Positions 1,030 to 13,163 of a stretch of 64,000 bases of DNA are shown piece by piece. Source of the stretch: Oscillospiraceae bacterium (GTDB taxonomy: Bacteria > Bacillota > Clostridia > Oscillospirales > Oscillospiraceae); assembly GCA_017508045.1 (NCBI GenBank), contig JAFVZT010000031.1, positions 100,157-164,156 on the forward strand, read 5' to 3'. Numbering within the stretch: position 1 is the stretch's first letter; each line of letters opens with the position of its first letter. The position numbers were made by a program, and so were the translations under genes. The notes under the pieces are model-generated. The model searched no databases. It worked only from the letters and a program-made list of their open reading frames with translations, and was not told the origin of the DNA.

Positions 1030-1149
1030 AGTCAACACCTCAGAATACTTTATGCCAAATTCAATGCTTGATGAACAATTTTCCTCATAATGCCATAGAT
1101 TGTCAAAGAACGACAGTTCTAAACAAGAATTGATAGGAGGTATGTGATT

Positions 1150-1593
1150 TTGGACAAAAACAAGAATGACAAGTCCTATGGTGAGGGTCGCTTGCCTGCA
1201 ATGGCGCCTCTGGCGAACCCCTACGTTCCGTTCCAGCTTGATAATCCACCGATGTACGAAGCACAAAACGGTATCGTGAGAGGTACGCTCTTCCCGGGAC
1301 TGGATTTACCATTTATGGGAATGGTGAACAAAAATGATTTACCAGTGACCCCATTGACAGAGCTGCAAACGATGGCTTTTGCGGTTCACGAACTGGCTTT
1401 ATATCTGGATACCCACAGAGATGACCAAGAGGTTTTAGAGATGTATCGCACGTATCAAAGGCTATACAAAGAGGGACGTAAAAAATATGAGAAAATGTGC
1501 GGCCCACTTAATCATATGTCATCTGCTGAGGGCGGTTACAGATGGTTGGATGACCCATGGCCTTGGGAATACGCAAAGAATCGGGAGGTATAG
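1150..1593 (+). CDS. Fused spore coat proteins CotJA-CotJB
   Basis: A single 147-aa frame joins two small coat proteins that are separate genes in Bacillus. Residues about 15-60 resemble CotJA (PLANPYVPFQ and GTLFPGLDLPF stretches). Residues about 68-147 resemble CotJB (ELQTMAFAVHELALYLDTH, the YGPL-like CGPLNH, and the terminal WLDDPWPWE motif). The frame is continuous with no frameshift. TTG at 1150 is preferred because GGAGG at 1136-1140 lies 9 bases before it; a GTG at 1144 is in frame but only 3 bases from that site. cotJC starts 2 bases after the stop, so the genes are co-transcribed, in Bacillus from a mother-cell promoter. I found no convincing sigma-E promoter in 1030-1149. Confidence 0.8.
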   Translation: MDKNKNDKSYGEGRLPAMAPLANPYVPFQLDNPPMYEAQNGIVRGTLFPGLDLPFMGMVNKNDLPVTPLTELQTMAFAVHELALYLDTHRDDQEVLEMYRTYQRLYKEGRKKYEKMCGPLNHMSSAEGGYRWLDDPWPWEYAKNREV

Positions 1594-1595
1594 TC

Positions 1596-1790
1596 ATGTT
1601 TATTTATGATAAGAAATTGCAGTATCCGGTGAAAATTGACAAACCAAATCCGAGACTCGCTTCTATAATTATTTCGCAGTATGGTGGTCCTGACGGAGAA
1701 TTGGGCGCGTCACTTCGATATCTTTCCCAACGATACAGTATGCCCTTCGATGAACCAAAGGGTACAACGAAAGAAAACGGACCGTGTTAA
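1596..1790 (+). CDS. cotJC: CotJC N-terminal fragment (gene interrupted by insertion element)
   Basis: First half of the spore-coat protein CotJC, a relative of manganese catalases. ATG at 1596 follows GGGAGG by 7 bases. Residues 1-53 match the family closely: MFIYDKKLQYPVKIDKP start, then QYGGPDGELGASLRYLSQRY, which holds the first metal-ligand Glu of the ferritin-like fold. After MPFDEPKG the frame leaves the family, reads 8 foreign residues and stops at 1788-1790 in the loop of a terminator hairpin. The rest of the gene resumes in frame at 3947. Joining at any of the shared tracts (1743-1762 with 3947-3966, constant offset 2,204 bp) gives a continuous 198-aa CotJC, close to the normal size of about 190. 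Confidence 0.88.
   Translation: MFIYDKKLQYPVKIDKPNPRLASIIISQYGGPDGELGASLRYLSQRYSMPFDEPKGTTKENGPC
1735..1770 (+). other. Left attachment site (attL) of the cotJC element
   Basis: The junction carries the core CCCTTCGATGAACCAAAGGG at 1743-1762, which matches 17 of 20 bases of the core at 3947-3966. Identical tracts are CCCTTCGA, GAAC and AAGGG. The element-side arm AAGGGTACA (1758-1766) is the exact reverse complement of the element-side arm TGTACCCTT at the other end. The GA at 1752-1753 is at the centre of that dyad and is the likely crossover dinucleotide. Confidence 0.7.
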
Positions 1791-1802
1791 TCACGGTCCG
1801 TT
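1776..1802 (-). terminator. Intrinsic terminator after the EIIC-like gene
   Basis: Perfect 11-bp inverted repeat AACGGACCGTG / CACGGTCCGTT with a TTAAT loop. On the minus strand it is followed by TTTTCTTT, so it ends transcription of the gene at 1831-2919. The stop codon of the truncated cotJC lies in its loop. Confidence 0.7.
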
Positions 1803-1830
1803 AGAATTTACTGCTACTATGTTAATAGAA

Positions 1831-2919
1831 TTAAACAGATAGCTTCATATCGCCATCTCTCACCCAGCCAACCTTACGAAGAATTTCATTAAAAATCCAA
1901 GATAGCAGGGCTGGAAGAACAATGCAAATCAGGATTAAGCCAATCCAGTCAAAAGCTGTAGGAATAATGGGGGTTGCACTGGCAGCCAGCGGGTTAAACC
2001 AACCTGATATCACACCAATTGGACCGACCATACCGCAAGTTCCCATGCCGCTGGACACAGCAGCGCCATTCATTTCCAGCTTGAATACTACAGTGGCAAG
2101 CGGACCGGTTACTGCGGAGGCAAGTGTCGGTGCAATCCATATTCTGGGGTTTTTTACAATGTTCGGTACCTGCAGCATTGATGTACCTAGACCCTGCGCC
2201 ACCAGACCTCCCAAACGATTTTCGCGGTATGAGATCACAGCAAAGCCAATCATCTGGGCGCAGCAGCCTGCAACGGCCGCACCGCCGGCTAAACCGACAA
2301 CGCCAAAGCTTGCACAAATTGCTGCAGAACTAATGGGAAGCGTTAAAATCATACCCATAACAACCGAAATAACAACGCCCATAATAACAGGCTGCTGTAC
2401 CGTTGCCCAAACAATAATTTCACCTAATGCTTTTGCGCAATCTCCGATTGGCTTGGAAATCAAAAGCGCCAAGGCACAGCCGACAACAATGGTAACGATC
2501 GGGGTTACCAAAACATCTATCTTCGTCTTTTTGCTAACAAGCATGCCAACCTCAGATGCCACAATGGCTATAATCAACACAGCAAGCGGACCGCCTGCTC
2601 CGCCTAACGAGTTTGTCGCGTAACCTACAGTAGCAAGGGAAAACAAAACCAAAGGATCTGCCTTCAGTGCGTAACCGATCGCAATTGCCATGGCACAACC
2701 GGAGGCAGCTGATGCAAAATCACCCATTGCAACCAAAGCCGCAGCCAGCTGGTCAATAAAGGCATTGTCAACGAGATTTCCAACCTGTTGACCGAGTGTC
2801 TTAACGATTGTACCTACCAGCAGTGATGCAAACAAACCGTTTGCCATAGCACCCATGGCATCGATAAAATACCGCTTGCCATACCTTATAAGCGTGCTCT
2901 TCAAACCTTTTTCCTTCAC
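1831..2919 (-). CDS. PTS EIIC_2-type membrane protein (element cargo)
   Basis: Polytopic membrane protein of 362 aa resembling the stand-alone EIIC-like family PTS_EIIC_2 (PF13303 type), whose substrate is not known to me. It is rich in Gly/Ala helices, about 9-10 membrane segments, with short conserved stretches such as YATNSLGGAGGPLA, VQQPVIMG, SSAAICASFG and a terminal DWIGLILICIVLPAL. GTG at 2919 is the likely start, with AAAGGAG 9 bases upstream. It lies wholly within the cotJC element, antisense to cotJC and divergent from the recombinase. If the element is excised in the mother cell, that cell loses the gene while the spore keeps it. No EIIA/EIIB partner is visible nearby. Confidence 0.7.
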   Translation of the reverse strand: MKEKGLKSTLIRYGKRYFIDAMGAMANGLFASLLVGTIVKTLGQQVGNLVDNAFIDQLAAALVAMGDFASAASGCAMAIAIGYALKADPLVLFSLATVGYATNSLGGAGGPLAVLIIAIVASEVGMLVSKKTKIDVLVTPIVTIVVGCALALLISKPIGDCAKALGEIIVWATVQQPVIMGVVISVVMGMILTLPISSAAICASFGVVGLAGGAAVAGCCAQMIGFAVISYRENRLGGLVAQGLGTSMLQVPNIVKNPRIWIAPTLASAVTGPLATVVFKLEMNGAAVSSGMGTCGMVGPIGVISGWFNPLAASATPIIPTAFDWIGLILICIVLPALLSWIFNEILRKVGWVRDGDMKLSV

Positions 2920-3036
2920 GATAATCTCCTTTCACATTCGACAGGTTTGTATATTTTCCAGAACATTATAACAAGCTATGTGTCGTATTTCAAGACGCTT
3001 TTTCGTATTTACTTGAATATCCCGGAGGTAAGAATT

Positions 3037-3990
3037 ATGGATGCTATTTATGCACGGCAATCAATTGATAAAGCAGACAGTATTTCAATTGATAGTCAAA
3101 TCGAGTTCTGTAGGTTTGAATGTAAAAATCAACCCCATACAATTTATGCCGATAAGGGTTATAGTGGAAAAAACACAGACAGGCCGGAATTTCAAAGAAT
3201 GATGGCAGATATACGAAACGGAAAAATTCACCGGATTGTATGCTATAAATTAGATAGATGCAGTCGCTCGGTGCTGGATTTTACTACATTAATGGAGGAG
3301 CTTCAAAAATATGATGTAGCATTTGTTTCTTGTACAGAAAAATTTGATACCGGTAGCCCCATCGGGCGCGCTATGCTAAATATCTGCATCGTCTTTGCTC
3401 AGCTTGAACGGGAAACTATTCAACAGCGTGTTTCCGATGCCTATCACAGCAGATGTAAAAAAGGCTTTTTTATGGGCGGAAAAATACCATACGGCTTTCG
3501 CGGCGGGCAGATTCTTCTTAACGGAAAAAAATCAACGTGCTATGAAATCCATAGCGAAGAGGCGGATGCGCTTCGACTTATGTACGATATTTACAGCAAG
3601 CCAGACAGTTCTTACTCTGACGTTCTTGCGGTTTTAAAGGATAAGAATATCCAAAATCCAAACCGCACGGATGGTGCGTGGATTAGAAGTCATTTAGGCA
3701 GATTGTTGCGAAATCCGGCCTATGTCAGAGCTGATATATTTATATATTCCTATTTTAAAACAATGGGCGTCTGTATTGAAAATTCCGAGGATGAATTTAT
3801 CGGTACAAACGGATGTTACTTATATAACAATAAATCGACAAATACAAAACATCTGGTACTTGCGCCCCATAAAGGCATTGTCTCTTCGTCTCTTTGGCTT
3901 TCCTGCCAAATTAAGAACAAAAACAGCAATTTTATGTCATTGTGTACCCTTCGAGGAACTGAAGGGATTGCTGACGGATATAGGCACTGA
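3037..3990 (+). CDS. Serine recombinase of the cotJC element
   Basis: Serine recombinase, 317 aa as encoded here. Residues 1-140 form the resolvase catalytic domain: YARQS with nucleophile Ser9, ADKGYSGKNTDRPEFQRM, and the LDRCSRS arginine motif. About 155-265 is the DNA-binding recombinase domain (KIPYGFRGG, LGRLLRNPAYV). The protein then ends about where related large recombinases would start their zinc ribbon and coiled coil, so it is short (usual length 450-550). ATG at 3037 has GGAGG 8 bases before it. The last 14 or so codons overlap the right attachment core and the cotJC remainder in another frame (3947-3990), so its C-terminus differs between integrated and circular forms. It is the only recombinase present and so the likely excision enzyme. 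Confidence 0.85.
   Translation: MDAIYARQSIDKADSISIDSQIEFCRFECKNQPHTIYADKGYSGKNTDRPEFQRMMADIRNGKIHRIVCYKLDRCSRSVLDFTTLMEELQKYDVAFVSCTEKFDTGSPIGRAMLNICIVFAQLERETIQQRVSDAYHSRCKKGFFMGGKIPYGFRGGQILLNGKKSTCYEIHSEEADALRLMYDIYSKPDSSYSDVLAVLKDKNIQNPNRTDGAWIRSHLGRLLRNPAYVRADIFIYSYFKTMGVCIENSEDEFIGTNGCYLYNNKSTNTKHLVLAPHKGIVSSSLWLSCQIKNKNSNFMSLCTLRGTEGIADGYRH
3939..3970 (+). other. Right attachment site (attR) of the cotJC element
   Basis: Core CCCTTCGAGGAACTGAAGGG at 3947-3966, in direct orientation relative to attL. The element-side arm TGTACCCTT at 3943-3951 pairs by symmetry with AAGGGTACA of attL, so the excised circle would carry a site with perfect 9-bp arms around a 10-base centre. The site lies inside the 3' end of the recombinase gene. 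Confidence 0.7.
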
Positions 3991-4396
3991 AGAACTAGGT
4001 CATTTAGAAATGGTCGGCGCAATCGTTCACCAACTGACACGAAATTTGAAGGATTCTCAAATTCAAGATTCTGCCTTCGCACCATATTTTGTGGACCACA
4101 CAGCAGGCGTTTACCCCACTGCTGCTTCGGGCTTCCCGTGGAGTGCGGCTAGTATAGCTGTTAAGGGTGACCCAATTGCTGATTTGACCGAAGATTTAGC
4201 GGCAGAACAAAAAGCGCGGGTGACCTACGATAACATTTTGCGATTGAGTGACGATCCGGACGTTAACAACGTAATTAAGTTCCTGCGTGAACGGGAGGTT
4301 GTTCATTTTCAAAGATTTGGTGAAGCAATGCAGTTACTGCGCGAGAAGCTTAACCAGAAAAATGTGTATTATATGAATCCTGCATTTGATATGTGA
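3947..4396 (+). CDS. cotJC: CotJC C-terminal part (no start of its own)
   Basis: The remaining roughly 149 codons of cotJC. From 3947 the frame reads PFEELKGLLTDIGTEELGHLEM, the CotJC continuation, then GFPWSAASIAVKGDPIADL, AAEQKARVTYDN and FLREREVVHFQRF. These contain the EExxHxE, E-EKAR and ERExxH metal-site residues of Mn-catalase-like proteins. The frame is open further upstream into the element but that part has no family similarity, and there is no ribosome site at the boundary, so it is not an independent gene. It is intact to its stop at 4394-4396, which argues that it is still under selection. Confidence 0.88.
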   Translation, partial: PFEELKGLLTDIGTEELGHLEMVGAIVHQLTRNLKDSQIQDSAFAPYFVDHTAGVYPTAASGFPWSAASIAVKGDPIADLTEDLAAEQKARVTYDNILRLSDDPDVNNVIKFLREREVVHFQRFGEAMQLLREKLNQKNVYYMNPAFDM

Positions 4397-8629: not shown

Positions 8630-9178
8630 TCACAAAACCTCGACCACGCGTATATCTTCCATTGTAAATTTGGACTGGGTCATAACAATATCTGCAATTA
8701 CTGCCACATCCGTTTGCTTCAAACCGTCTTTTGGAGATGCTACCGCTACGGATATTCCCTCATCACTTATGTATGCAACACAGTCGGTATATCCCTTGGC
8801 GATAATCAGGCTTTCAATTTGTGCTTCACACAGGGCGGATTGGACAAGCTCTTCCAGCTGCGCATTGGTTTGTGCATTTTTATCGCTGTCTCCATAGGCC
8901 ATAGCTTCCTGAAGTAAGCCGACAGCGCTATCCCGCGCTTCCTGTCTGGACAAGCGAACGGCGGCAAAGTAATCAATAATTGTGTTGTTTGTGTCGACCG
9001 GCAGAGTACTGCCATCGTTCATTACCAACATATCCGATGATAATATCTTACTCTCATCCAGCGTATCGGTCAGATTTGCGGTTGCCTGATCCTCAGTATA
9101 AAGCCAATTGACATAAATGCCTGCGCATACTGTCACAAGAACAGCGGCAGCAACCACATTCTTCTTCCAAGTTTTCAT
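8630..9178 (-). CDS. spoIIIAH: Stage III sporulation protein AH
   Basis: Mother-cell component of the SpoIIIA-SpoIIQ channel that spans the space between mother cell and forespore. It has 182 aa, a single N-terminal membrane segment (about 7-24) and a C-terminal ring-forming domain of YscJ type ending DIVMTQSKFTMEDIRVVEV. ATG at 9178 is chosen because the lysine-flanked membrane segment follows and the sequence before it is unrelated. Last gene of the spoIIIA operon; a 12-bp hairpin follows the stop. Confidence 0.88.
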   Translation of the reverse strand: MKTWKKNVVAAAVLVTVCAGIYVNWLYTEDQATANLTDTLDESKILSSDMLVMNDGSTLPVDTNNTIIDYFAAVRLSRQEARDSAVGLLQEAMAYGDSDKNAQTNAQLEELVQSALCEAQIESLIIAKGYTDCVAYISDEGISVAVASPKDGLKQTDVAVIADIVMTQSKFTMEDIRVVEVL

Positions 9179-9192
9179 AAAAATGCCTCCAA

Positions 9193-9696
9193 TCATTTCA
9201 TTTTCAATACAGATATTTGATTTGCGCCCAGTCCGGTAATTTTTGATACGGCATCTACAATCGCCAGCTGTACCACCGGGTTATCACCGCCCTGACACAC
9301 AATTATTGCACCCTTGTAGATGGCAGGATTTACCTGTTTGATTAATCCCGTCTCATTTCGTTGTGCGTCGGTAATAGTAACAGTGTTTGTCTTAAAGCTC
9401 TCAGCATCATTGTTGCTTGTTGCATCCTCATTGGTTTGGTAGAAGGTCTCCTCCCCTTCCGCTATTGTTAACATTACTTTTACATTACCTGCTCCCGATA
9501 CGTTGCTTAATATTTTTTCAAGGCGTTCCTCCAATGATGGCTCAGCAGCCTTTGAAGAATAATCCTGAATATTTGTGCTTGTCGCCTTTGTATCGGGCAT
9601 CAGCATCAGTACCAAGCCTATTGTTAGGATGATTATAACATACTTATATTTTTTTAAAAAAGGCTGTATTTTTTTCGTAAGCGCTTTTATCTCCAC
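9193..9696 (-). CDS. spoIIIAG: Stage III sporulation protein AG
   Basis: SpoIIIAG (167 aa) forms the large ring of the mother-cell-to-forespore channel. It has one membrane helix (about 19-34), LEERLEKILSNVSGAGNVKVMLT, and a C-terminal ring-building region ending KITGLGANQISVLKMK. The start is GTG at 9696 with AGGAG 8 bases before it, overlapping spoIIIAF by 10 bases. Confidence 0.88.
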   Translation of the reverse strand: MEIKALTKKIQPFLKKYKYVIIILTIGLVLMLMPDTKATSTNIQDYSSKAAEPSLEERLEKILSNVSGAGNVKVMLTIAEGEETFYQTNEDATSNNDAESFKTNTVTITDAQRNETGLIKQVNPAIYKGAIIVCQGGDNPVVQLAIVDAVSKITGLGANQISVLKMK

Positions 9697-10160
9697 ACTT
9701 GCTTCTCCTTTGGAATACCAAGGTCATTGGCTATTATACTTTCCAGCGTTTTCTTTGCATAAGGCGAACTATCACCGACAATCGCAACGGATACGGGAAC
9801 AAACGGCGATGTTTCCGAAACCGAAACATCAACAGAAATATCCATTTCCAACAACGACGCTTTGTCCAATATATATGCCTGCGTTTCCTGCTTTATGATA
9901 GCAACTGTTGACTGAATTGCAAATTGCTCACCATCATATACCGCAGAATTTGCATTGGTGTCGATGTCTGTGTACCAATCTGTCAGCTTGTCTATTTGTA
10001 TCCGTCCCAGCGGTGCAATCACGGTTATTGCTAAAAATATTCCTGTAAGCATCTTAATTACCGATGCACTTGTTTTGCTGTAGTTTGCAAATTTAATGGC
10101 CGCACTACACGCAATTCCGGCACAAACTACAGACAGAATATATTGTCTGATATCCTCCAT
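9687..10160 (-). CDS. spoIIIAF: Stage III sporulation protein AF
   Basis: SpoIIIAF (157 aa) has two N-terminal membrane helices (about 7-25 and 33-52) and a soluble C-terminal domain with a ring-building-like fold (VSETSPFVPVSVAIVG). ATG at 10160 adjoins the stop of spoIIIAE and has GAAGGG upstream; a longer frame would run far into spoIIIAE. Part of the eight-gene spoIIIA operon made in the mother cell. Confidence 0.87.
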   Translation of the reverse strand: MEDIRQYILSVVCAGIACSAAIKFANYSKTSASVIKMLTGIFLAITVIAPLGRIQIDKLTDWYTDIDTNANSAVYDGEQFAIQSTVAIIKQETQAYILDKASLLEMDISVDVSVSETSPFVPVSVAIVGDSSPYAKKTLESIIANDLGIPKEKQVWR

Positions 10161-11200
10161 TATGTCACGCCCTTCATAATACAAACAGTGCTGATTAAGT
10201 GAATTAAACATACCGTTCCGGTCATACCTAGAAGAAAGCCCATTACTGATGTAAAATCGTCAATTATTTTAACTTGTTTATTTGTACCGATGGTACTGCA
10301 AACAGCGCCTGAGATTTTTAAGAGAAGGTATTGCATTCCAATTTGAAGAAACGGACCGATACAAAGCGCAATAATAGCCAATAGCCCGTATACTCCAACA
10401 GCATTTTTCATAACGCCGGCACTGATTAAAATTGTTTCAGAGGCATCGGAAATTATATTGCCGATCACCGGAACAAGCCCGGATAATGCGAGCTTTGCAG
10501 CTTTTACAGAAACGGCATCAGCTGTTCCGCTAATTACACCGGTAATTCCAATATATCCGGTAAATAAATACACCGCAATCTTTAATGACCACGTCATCAA
10601 CCATTTGATAAAATCACGGATTCTTTCAATCAACTCCTCGCCGATTGCGCTGTGTACAATGCTAAGTACGATGTATATGTATACCATCGGTATAATTAGC
10701 CTCGTGATTGCTGAAGAAAGGAGAGTATTAAACAGTACAGTGCCTGTATACAATGCCGCTGACGTTGTTATTGCCCCCTCAGCTGCCATTGCAGATGTCA
10801 TTACCGGTAGCAGAAGCTTTGCATATTCACTGATTTGCTGTATTGTAGAAACGCCTAAACGGATTAATAAATTAGAAGACTGCATTAGCAATATACTTAC
10901 AGATATGGTGCCAACCAGTTCAACTGTCTGTTTTCCGGCTCCGTTAAAGCTGCTGGCAACGGATATTATAAGAACGATCCCAATCAAGGATACGCATGTT
11001 TTTATGGCCGCTGAAAAATTTGGTTGTAATTTTGCGATGGCATTTTTAATGATGTACCACAAATCTGCTGAAAATGTTGACTGTTCATCGGGCATAAGCT
11101 CCTGAGCATCGGAGGGTGCCGATGGAGCAACAAATTCCATAGCCGACACTGTTGTACTAAATAAGCATAACACACATAAAAGTATGATTACTTTTCTCAT
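10160..11200 (-). CDS. spoIIIAE: Stage III sporulation protein AE
   Basis: Large polytopic membrane protein of the spoIIIA channel, 346 aa. A signal-like N-terminus (residues 3-20) and about eight further membrane helices are visible, with motifs such as SLIGIVLIISVASSF, SGLVPVIGNIISDASETILISAGVMKNAVGVYG and FLLGMTGTVCLIHLIS. It overlaps spoIIIAD by 4 bases. Confidence 0.92.
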   Translation of the reverse strand: MRKVIILLCVLCLFSTTVSAMEFVAPSAPSDAQELMPDEQSTFSADLWYIIKNAIAKLQPNFSAAIKTCVSLIGIVLIISVASSFNGAGKQTVELVGTISVSILLMQSSNLLIRLGVSTIQQISEYAKLLLPVMTSAMAAEGAITTSAALYTGTVLFNTLLSSAITRLIIPMVYIYIVLSIVHSAIGEELIERIRDFIKWLMTWSLKIAVYLFTGYIGITGVISGTADAVSVKAAKLALSGLVPVIGNIISDASETILISAGVMKNAVGVYGLLAIIALCIGPFLQIGMQYLLLKISGAVCSTIGTNKQVKIIDDFTSVMGFLLGMTGTVCLIHLISTVCIMKGVT

Positions 11201-11592
11201 ATGGATACCAAAATTTCCTCTACAAGTTCAATTAGGTTATGAAATAGCGGCAAGGATAACCAAAGAATTACAGCTCCAGCCAGAATTTTAAGGGTTTGAC
11301 CTAATGCTGCATTTCCGGCATCCGCACATACGAGACCAATGATTTCTGACAGCAGCCCAATCCCGACAGCCTTGAGTATAATTATAAGCATTGTATCGTC
11401 AAGATTACCAATAATTTGCAAGCTGTTTATAAACGATACTACTGGCTTTAAATAGCCAATTGCTACGGCTGTCACCATGCAGCATACAGTAAGGGTTAAT
11501 AATAATGAAATATCTTTTCCTTGTTTTACTAAAACAAGATATAATACCAATGCGATTAATACACCGCCTGATGCTTTTATAAATGTGTCCAT
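11197..11592 (-). CDS. spoIIIAD: Stage III sporulation protein AD
   Basis: SpoIIIAD, 131 aa, a small protein with four predicted membrane helices and the family's conserved C-terminal half (KAVGIGLLSEIIGLVCADAGNAALGQTLKILAGAVILWLSLPL). It overlaps spoIIIAC by 1 base and spoIIIAE by 4 bases. Confidence 0.92.
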   Translation of the reverse strand: MDTFIKASGGVLIALVLYLVLVKQGKDISLLLTLTVCCMVTAVAIGYLKPVVSFINSLQIIGNLDDTMLIIILKAVGIGLLSEIIGLVCADAGNAALGQTLKILAGAVILWLSLPLFHNLIELVEEILVSI

Positions 11593-11786
11593 TAAAATTG
11601 AAATAAGGATTTAACCAATTCAAACAACTCGGATATTTTTTGTGCAACAATCATCAATACAACAATTAATGCTGCCAGCGTAGTCATAGTTGCCTGCTCT
11701 TCCCGCCCGGAACGCGACAAAACTTGATTTAAGATTGACGTAATAATTCCGATTGCAGCAATTTTAAAAATAAGGTCAATGTCCAT
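11592..11786 (-). CDS. spoIIIAC: Stage III sporulation protein AC
   Basis: SpoIIIAC, 64 aa, with two membrane helices and the family pattern DLIFKIAAIGIITSILNQVLSRSGREEQA then a C-terminal ISELFELVKSLFQ helix. It lies 1 base after spoIIIAB. Confidence 0.93.
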   Translation of the reverse strand: MDIDLIFKIAAIGIITSILNQVLSRSGREEQATMTTLAALIVVLMIVAQKISELFELVKSLFQF

Positions 11787-11787
11787 A

Positions 11788-12300
11788 TTAAATAAACAGT
11801 ATTACCAACACTGCACCTGCACAGATACCCAGTGTTTGATAGCTACGCAACTTTACCTCCTGATTTTTTGTAAAAGCGGTTAACGTTTGCTTACTTTCGA
11901 TATATATTACATCTAATTCCTTTAATTGTCCTTCCAAACCAAAATTACCCAAGGCCCTTCCCAACGATCTCATAGCAACATATGTAAGCTTTGGCAAATT
12001 TCTTGTGACCTCCAATGCGGACAGCATACAACATTCCACATCCGGTGATATTTGATTATTCAATTCATCCGCCAGAGCTGAAAATGTGTATCTTAATACG
12101 CCCGTACATTGTAAAGCCGTTTGCGCGCATAGATCAGGAAGCGGTGTAATGCGATATTGCATTTCACACTGCATATAAGCAATTGCTGAAATAAATTCAG
12201 CCAGGATTCTAGCCTCCCTGCGATGAGATGCAGCTTTAACGAAACCAATGCCGCCGCATCCAAAGATAATAAATATCCCACCAAGCAATTTAAGTGTCAT
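11788..12300 (-). CDS. spoIIIAB: Stage III sporulation protein AB
   Basis: SpoIIIAB, 170 aa, with an N-terminal membrane helix (about 3-20), a helical cytoplasmic region (ILAEFISAIAYMQCEMQYRITPLPDL) and a C-terminal membrane helix (LGICAGAVLVILFI). It resembles type II secretion GspF-like proteins, consistent with pairing to the SpoIIIAA ATPase. ATGA overlap with spoIIIAA. Confidence 0.9.
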   Translation of the reverse strand: MTLKLLGGIFIIFGCGGIGFVKAASHRREARILAEFISAIAYMQCEMQYRITPLPDLCAQTALQCTGVLRYTFSALADELNNQISPDVECCMLSALEVTRNLPKLTYVAMRSLGRALGNFGLEGQLKELDVIYIESKQTLTAFTKNQEVKLRSYQTLGICAGAVLVILFI

Positions 12301-13145
12301 ATATTCATCCTTTCAATGCACCACGACTTATCCTGATGAAGAACTACCAAATAGTCAAATAAGCCGCTTTCAACAATCGGACGATAAACAGGACGGTTTA
12401 ATAAATCATAACGACTGGATGCATGAGCAGTGGCCAGGAGCTTAACGCCGCACCATCCAACGTGCAATAATGCTGTGCAATCCTCGTGTGCTGTAATTTC
12501 ATCAACAGCAATAATATCCGGTCCCATACTCCGCAACATAAGATCTATACCATAGGCCTTTGAACAACCGCTGATGACATCCGTGTTAATTCCTATCGGA
12601 AAGCACATACTTTTGTTATATCTGGGAAATAACTCTTCCCGTTCGTCGACAACAGATATGTTTTCCCTTCCAGCGTTGGATTTTTGACGAATTACATCCC
12701 GTAATAAGGTCGTTTTTCCGCAGCCGGGTTTGCCTATTATTAATATTGATCCGTCCAAATCTTTAATTTTTCCGGCTATGCCCGGAAAATCTCTGGCTAC
12801 ACGCAAGCAAATGGAGGTGGGGACGCGAATACAGCTTATCGCCCCGTCTAAAGTTGCTGCCTCGCCGCATATTCCAAGCCGATGCCCACCCTGTGCCGTT
12901 ATATATCCGTGGGTAACAGTCGTAGCTGACCACGGTGAATATCTGGATGCAATATTGATACAAAACTGTAGATCCTCAGCCGTTACAGTTTTACTTAAGC
13001 TGATTTGCTTGTCGGATGTGACTAAAATCGGAGGTTGTCCCACCCTTAAACGCAGATTTTGTAAGGTTTCCTTTCCCTTGCTGTTTACATTTTCGCGCAT
13101 CCAAATTGGCAGTAGGTTCATAAATGCTTCCCATGCGCACATCAT
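12297..13145 (-). CDS. spoIIIAA: Stage III sporulation protein AA (secretion-type ATPase)
   Basis: Secretion-ATPase-like protein (282 aa) thought to energise the spoIIIA channel. Walker A is ILIIGKPGCGKTTLLRD at about 143-159, followed by SVVDEREELFP and a Walker B-like DIIAVDEI. Start: ATG at 13145 is 8 bases from GGGAG; ATG/GTG codons at 13151, 13154 and 13142 are also in frame. It opens the operon and is preceded by a sigma-E-like promoter and, further up, the ftsK terminator. Confidence 0.9.
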   Translation of the reverse strand: MMCAWEAFMNLLPIWMRENVNSKGKETLQNLRLRVGQPPILVTSDKQISLSKTVTAEDLQFCINIASRYSPWSATTVTHGYITAQGGHRLGICGEAATLDGAISCIRVPTSICLRVARDFPGIAGKIKDLDGSILIIGKPGCGKTTLLRDVIRQKSNAGRENISVVDEREELFPRYNKSMCFPIGINTDVISGCSKAYGIDLMLRSMGPDIIAVDEITAHEDCTALLHVGWCGVKLLATAHASSRYDLLNRPVYRPIVESGLFDYLVVLHQDKSWCIERMNI

Positions 13146-13163
13146 ATGCATCACTCCCAGTTA

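Follow-up and report, generated by a model that had tools for sequence, protein, structure and literature searches.

The stretch of DNA analysed here, hereafter the window, comprises 64,000 nucleotides from an Oscillospiraceae bacterium (GCA_017508045.1, contig JAFVZT010000031.1, positions 100,157 to 164,156) and contains the sporulation gene cotJC, which is interrupted by a small element with a serine recombinase gene. Between positions 1596 and 4396, cotJC is split in frame by 2,204 bp. Its 5' part (1596..1753, + strand) consists of codons 1-53 up to the predicted crossover, and its 3' part (3958..4396, + strand) includes the stop codon. The intervening element (1754..3957) is delimited by the join analysis. 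The reading frame is open from 1596 to codon 52-53 and again from 3947-3966 to 4396, both halves being without stops or frameshifts. In Pfam, the left part corresponds to profile positions 1-52 of Mn_catalase (PF05067, E 2e-16) and the right part to 54-198 (E 6e-35). The break is bordered by two cores, attL CCCTTCGATGAACCAAAGGG (1743..1762, + strand) and attR CCCTTCGAGGAACTGAAGGG (3947..3966, + strand), which are identical at 17 of 20 bases, with mismatches at core positions 9, 14 and 15, and are offset by exactly 2,204. All 20 joins tried yield a stop-free CotJC of 198 amino acids (aa), varying only at the core residues (FEEL, FDEL or FDEP). The chance of at least 17 matches among 20 bases in this frame-fixed register is about 3e-8, by a hand estimate with equal base frequencies. 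These results bear out a preliminary description of this DNA, which had proposed an in-frame split of cotJC by a 2.2-kb recombinase element, with halves free of stops and frameshifts. A second cotJC copy elsewhere was considered and rejected, as a search of the same genome (76% complete, 31 contigs) returned no Mn_catalase match besides the two halves.

The same description had suggested looking among relatives for uninterrupted cotJC and for an element at the same codon, and both are found. A pattern search detects the matching core site in 12 of 13 uninterrupted relatives, where it reads PFDELK (in most), PFDDQK or PFDEQK; the 13th (locus L024) reads PYDELK and falls outside the pattern. In addition, related elements with the same core family occupy the insertion point of the window, termed site I below, in G060 and G120, which are different species of one genus. 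The parts of the two elements available for comparison are identical at 2279 of 2457 positions on the left (92.8%) and at 133 of 134 on the right, far more alike than the flanking cotJC halves (122/156 and 346/440, 78-79%), which suggests that the site-I element is mobile between lineages. The host- and element-derived bases of this pair leave GA as the crossover dinucleotide, at the centre of a TGTACC...GGTACA dyad identified by eye. Applied to the window (left copy 1752..1753, + strand; right copy 3956-3957), this crossover gives the join PFDELKG, the usual sequence of relatives. The core differences of the window fit the prediction as well, T9 of the left core and T14 of the right core being host-like, and C14 and A15 of the left core element-like. 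The element of the window is flanked by matching att cores with inverted repeats.

Insertion points in cotJC across Oscillospirales

The PF05067 search covered 99 relatives and 136 genomes of the genus, and sites are numbered on the intact protein of G026. Many genomes contain cotJC in pieces, with breaks at the same few codons; placed in register, the junctions define five points. Site IV lies before E35 (between GGPDG and E, codons ~31-35), site I at E53 (PFDELK, codon ~53), and site II at G62-E64 (codons ~62-64) with the core GGTACAGAAG or near it. Site III is located at A134-E136 (codons ~134-136) with the core GCAGCAGA or near it, and site V at F173-E175 (codons ~173-175) with TTCGGYGA or near it. 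Among the examples compared, TTCGRYGA is common to sites I and V. The relatives of CotJC in the PDB are Mn catalases, and we take E35, E65, H68, E136 and H169 to be the metal ligands, by analogy with the L. plantarum enzyme. With the ligands so assumed, four of the five sites are no more than about four codons away from a ligand codon. The elements range in size from 2.2 to ~60 kb.

Among the 136 genus genomes, 53 contain an intact cotJC that passes the identity filter used for joining and 22 show both halves (21 of the 24 joined pairs described below, plus G122). Single pieces in further genomes, often at contig ends, were left out of these counts, and matches ending at profile positions 220-225, an apparent paralogue, were excluded by eye. 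Pieces are also present in other families of the order (G061, G072, G075, G082, G083, G088, G094 and G098), and split cotJC occurs in two isolates available in culture, Flavonifractor sp. An10 and Pseudoflavonifractor phocaeensis An858. One genome, G112 (contigs C22 and C5), has an intact cotJC together with a piece ending at site III near a contig end, reflecting either mixed strains or a mixed state.

Several genes are cut more than once. An10 possesses three cotJC pieces on one 265-kb contig (residues 1-63, 60-175 and 172-197), and An858 three pieces (sites III and V), the last on another contig. Four pieces each are found in G094 (sites II, III and V) and G180 (IV, II and V), and three each in G088 and G082. 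The multiply split genes rejoin in frame, giving proteins of 198 (An10), 210 (G094), 199 (G180), 201 (G088) and 198 aa (G082). One set of twelve genomes was picked for a recombinase abutting cotJC, so that 12 of 12 being split is not a frequency. The automatic join gave a wrong cut at site III of An858 and at site V of G122, and the second piece of L162 was filtered out; by eye, the cores of these three join in frame (AAE, FGE and FGEA, respectively). G155, G175, G178, G179, G181 and G185 give no full multi-piece protein, a piece being missing or unmatched. A second small element, of ~2.8 kb, occupies site III in G054 (L065, 4125-5345); its recombinase, at 407 aa, is short as well, yet retains the zinc ribbon. 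Taken together, cotJC is an integration hub in Oscillospirales and not the scene of a single event.

The split genes show no decay. All 24 pairs joined are stop-free, 20 of them at 198 aa, with G098 at 199, G083 at 202, G072 at 195 and G155 at 180 aa. A further element, inserted at site V and with a recombinase at a distance of 24 bp, accounts for the short join of G155; the join of G072 has an odd, site-V-like C-terminus after FGD, and no recombinase is seen nearby. L127, L130 and L141 failed the identity filter for joining, and G018 is not among the joined pairs. On the terminal branches of a parsimony analysis of 73 genes, nonsynonymous/synonymous (N/S) changes number 228/737 (0.31) for 20 split genes, junction codons excluded, and 540/2087 (0.26) for 53 intact ones, compared with a neutral ratio of 2.87; the branch of the window has 3/56. 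This tree excludes G072, G083, G098 and the short G155, along with two duplicates and six intact genes from other families. Judged by these substitution counts, split cotJC is under purifying selection and evolves like the intact genes. Moreover, spoIVA is present in all 16 split-cotJC genomes chosen for this test, that of the window included, which marks the hosts as sporeformers by genotype.

Other spore genes are interrupted in a similar way. A gene that we take to be sigK-like (the family cut-off is reached in 0 of 16 genomes) lies in pieces in G019, G166, G162 and G013 (L275-L281). Its breaks differ in position, following HIMKK, RCVEN or RSYVS, and recombinase open reading frames (ORFs) lie beside breaks in all four genomes. 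In An10 (G183), spoIVA is split near codon 400 by ~46 kb (C13:22670-23881 and 70213-70494; L273 and L274), and its right half is abutted by a 555-aa serine recombinase ORF. These splits fit the idea that mother-cell genes are favoured targets, because the restored gene is required solely in a cell without progeny.

Recombinase lineages and the element of the window

All five sites have elements with a serine recombinase ORF no more than 220 bp from one junction, and many other element ends, some at contig edges, show no such ORF. In a tree of 62 recombinase ORFs, the five sites require only four label changes, the minimum possible, against a mean of 27.6 in shuffled labels, and none of 200 shuffles is as low. 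The recombinases of sites III, IV and I each occupy one side of a strongly supported branch, those of site I (window and G060) being nested inside site V. The site II recombinases form two lineages, which may yet share a single origin; the tree carries a long-branch warning, and its deep joins are unsure. Recombinase lineages are each bound to one stretch of cotJC, as computed from this association. A scan of named genomes kept 80 loci out of 465 relatives of the site-I recombinase family. Of these 80, 30 abut a cotJC piece (29 at site V, a single one at site I); there is some overlap with the genomes of our G loci, and for several the cotJC piece is a tail of just 24-32 residues (E up to 0.001).

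A conserved ORF of ~60 residues is located just upstream of 29 of the 33 site I and site V recombinases (for example L078, L079, L081 and L162). The four without it are the window, L264 and L225, whose loci are cut near the ORF start, and the site-V recombinase of G094. By its position, this partner ORF may be a recombination directionality factor. Its assignment to a known Pfam family, TnpW being expected, was tried and dropped: two of three proteins gave no match and the third only matches below the cut-off.

Within the window, the recombinase gene (3037..3990, + strand) encodes 317 aa, and its last codons cross attR into cotJC. The protein belongs to the large serine recombinase family, as the sister of the G060 recombinase (support 100/96). 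Pfam finds PF00239 and PF07508 in it and reports no PF13408 zinc ribbon, which is present in all six other recombinases scanned, among them G060, with all three domains, and L162. Alignment with G060 and three other relatives of ~505 aa indicates that the window protein ends after the recombinase domain, with ~200 residues gone, and attR begins ~20 bases further on. The serine recombinase of the preliminary description is thus present in the element, and its C-terminal shortening had gone unmentioned there. The window copy contains no full-length serine recombinase, and its protein lacks the combination of resolvase, recombinase and zinc ribbon domains of the large serine recombinases. No homolog of the missing part was found at E<=1 in the 76%-complete genome, where the three other recombinase matches are only 24-28% identical. 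A search of viral_contigs with the window recombinase returned no related element.

Because the zinc ribbon, the C-terminal part and the partner ORF are absent, the window element has probably arisen by internal deletion, its att sites being left intact, and has probably lost, or is losing, autonomous excision. This loss may be recent enough for cotJC to be clean still, or excision may depend on a recombinase encoded in the quarter of the genome that the assembly lacks. Since a full recombinase, a defining part of skin-type elements, is lacking in this copy, we do not class it as a proven member of that group.

The cargo is a membrane protein of the phosphotransferase system (PTS) EIIC type (1831..2919, - strand, 362 aa; PF13303, E 3e-86). 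Its gene, which the preliminary description had likewise left out, and that of the recombinase are the two long genes of the element, inside which no conjugation genes were found. The PTS EIIC gene is the sole copy found in this genome, and homologs occur in 77 of the 136 genus genomes at E<=1e-30. It was probably captured by the window element, because homologs are common in the genus and the loci examined have no recombinase. A role as typical cargo of cotJC elements is unsupported, 0 of 14 homolog loci (L144-L157, ~1.5 kb on each side where the contig permits) containing a recombinase. The three closest homologs adjoin a phosphotransferase-like gene, named by eye, with no recombinase beside them. 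A putative terminator-like inverted repeat, CGGACCGTG/CACGGTCCG, was spotted by eye at 1778..1800. Upstream of cotJC lies its partner, a gene (1144..1593, + strand; PF11007 and PF12652) that joins CotJA and CotJB in one fused protein of 149 aa. A spoIIIA-like operon region (8630..13154, - strand), its ORFs named by eye, provides further sporulation-gene context of the host.

Probable rebuilding of cotJC by excision

The explanation that we favour, with a probability of about 0.62 for the proposal as a whole, is that cotJC serves as a hub for site-bound recombinases, that it is rebuilt by excision, and that the window holds an impaired derivative. Separate serine recombinase lineages would each be specialised on one short stretch of cotJC, where the core takes up elements that vary widely in size and that interrupt the reading frame without shifting it. 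As the pieces stay under selection, precise excision probably restores cotJC whenever the gene is required, and most likely does so in the mother cell. The mother cell would suit such rebuilding, as cotJC is expressed there and the rearranged chromosome is not inherited. In the excerpts available of the papers cited here and below, cotJC appears in a table of the sigma-E regulon (PMC3416734), and the mother-cell chromosome is described as not passed on (PMC4191935). The cotJC elements as a class are probably excised at sporulation. The window element would be a small derivative of the site-I lineage, with attL, attR and both gene halves intact and with its full recombinase and the partner ORF lost. 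Whether cotJC can further be regarded as a multi-exon gene at the DNA level appears to us an even call; up to three different elements, each with a recombinase of its own for one stretch of the coding sequence, would then be excised in the mother cell to restore a single gene of ~200 codons, in some hosts likewise for sigK and spoIVA, and the elements would have settled on the least changeable codons around the metal ligands.

Several observations weigh against this proposal. In the window itself, the recombinase is cut short and has no partner ORF upstream, and its end branch in the tree (0.99 against 0.42 for G060) is over twice as long as that of its relative. The site-V recombinase of G094 has no partner ORF, though its upstream sequence is present, so that the partner is usual and not universal. 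Uninterrupted cotJC in 53 of the 136 genus genomes means that splitting is unnecessary there. Nine of the 24 joined pairs span two contigs, and the run shared for the join is just 2-3 bases in G083, G052 and G019. Terminal branches also include time before insertion, and the N/S ratios accordingly speak for the lack of decay and not for the age of the split.

The preliminary description had read the 2.2-kb element as a skin-type element. The empty site in relatives, recurrence at the same sites, intact halves, purifying selection and the presence of spoIVA agree with that reading for the class, whereas the incomplete recombinase and the missing partner ORF do not agree with it for this copy. 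That the window element nevertheless works, through its own short recombinase or one acting in trans, is unlikely in our judgement. Both att cores and the dyad are intact, the cotJC halves are clean with few nonsynonymous changes, the catalytic domain of the recombinase is complete, ~24% of the genome is unseen, and the G054 recombinase is likewise short in a small element, zinc ribbon kept. Set against these are the missing zinc ribbon, C-terminal residues and partner ORF, together with the lack of a homolog of the missing part in the same genome, whose other recombinases are distant. Misassembly of a contig as the source of the split or of the short recombinase is hardly credible: the window does come from a draft genome, but the same site and dyad are present in G060 and G120, and many genomes, named isolates among them, have cotJC split at fixed codons.

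Excision could also be real and not developmental, a low constant circularisation for transfer leaving enough cells with an intact gene. We consider this rather unlikely. The G120 element, the one element tested, carries a TraG-type P-loop ATPase slightly above the family cut-off, the G060 and G120 elements are much more alike than their host gene, and the yin element of yabG was found excised at all time points (PMC10747680). The targets seen, however, are cotJC, the sigK-like gene and spoIVA, all sporulation genes, which is a better fit to developmental use. More improbable still is a scenario in which cotJC is dispensable and its conserved codons are no more than an attB, each recent insertion knocking the gene out permanently. 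Most serine-integrase clusters target one to three gene clusters, a fixed gene target being usual (PMC10083194), and coat catalases can be redundant in C. difficile (PMC11222575). A permanent knock-out is at odds with 24 of 24 stop-free pairs, N/S ratios like those of intact genes, and doubly or triply cut genes that rejoin in frame. Moreover, four closely related species (G052, G152, G160 and G169) are each split at site II or III, and the recombinase lineages are deep and bound to single sites.

If excision of the cotJC elements does take place, cells in part of a major order of gut bacteria would remove DNA in a programmed manner as an ordinary step of sporulation. Split cotJC could appear missing or truncated in automatic annotation, and the elements form a natural set of site-specific recombinases with matched sites. 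The isolates An10 and An858 make the proposal directly testable.

Comparison with known sporulation elements

Among the matches listed from open-licence PMC papers without preprints, covered by title and the start of the abstract, we found no interrupted cotJC and no case of multiple elements in one spore gene, a weak absence; the excerpts of PMC12946183 and PMC12904643 contain nothing on cotJC. The C. difficile phage phi027 was considered as a precedent and set aside, since in the passages available the prophage adjoins a cotJC homolog and does not lie inside it.

Elements that interrupt spore genes and carry their own recombinase include skin in sigK (B. subtilis and C. difficile), SPbeta in spsM, vfbin in spoVFB, vrin in spoVR and yin in yabG (PMC10747680, PMC4191935). 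The window element resembles them in splitting a sporulation gene in frame. As described there, these known elements are prophage-like and occur one per gene, whereas the two genes of the window element are not phage genes. A likeness also exists to integrative conjugative or mobilizable elements with large serine recombinases, as the nearest recombinase is that of G060 and the G120 element has the TraG ATPase; unlike them, the window element has one cargo gene and a truncated recombinase.

The closest known system is gin in gerE of Bacillus cereus ATCC10987, which spans 28.6 kb and has no phage genes, three serine recombinases and a demonstrated partner protein, GirX (PMC5595907). Like gin, which is excised at sporulation, the cotJC elements are non-phage elements with a serine recombinase; both interrupt a small gene of the mother cell at a short core and leave its frame intact. 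The cotJC elements differ from gin in their target, in the five insertion points, in the presence of up to three elements in one gene, and in that their excision is a prediction from sequence. In the sporulation rearrangements described so far in these sources, one element interrupts one gene, and here several recombinase lineages share a single gene in many gut species. The splitting of spore genes is thus known in kind; what appears to be new is cotJC as the target, with its five fixed insertion points, several elements stacked in one gene, and recombinase lineages that are each tied to a site.

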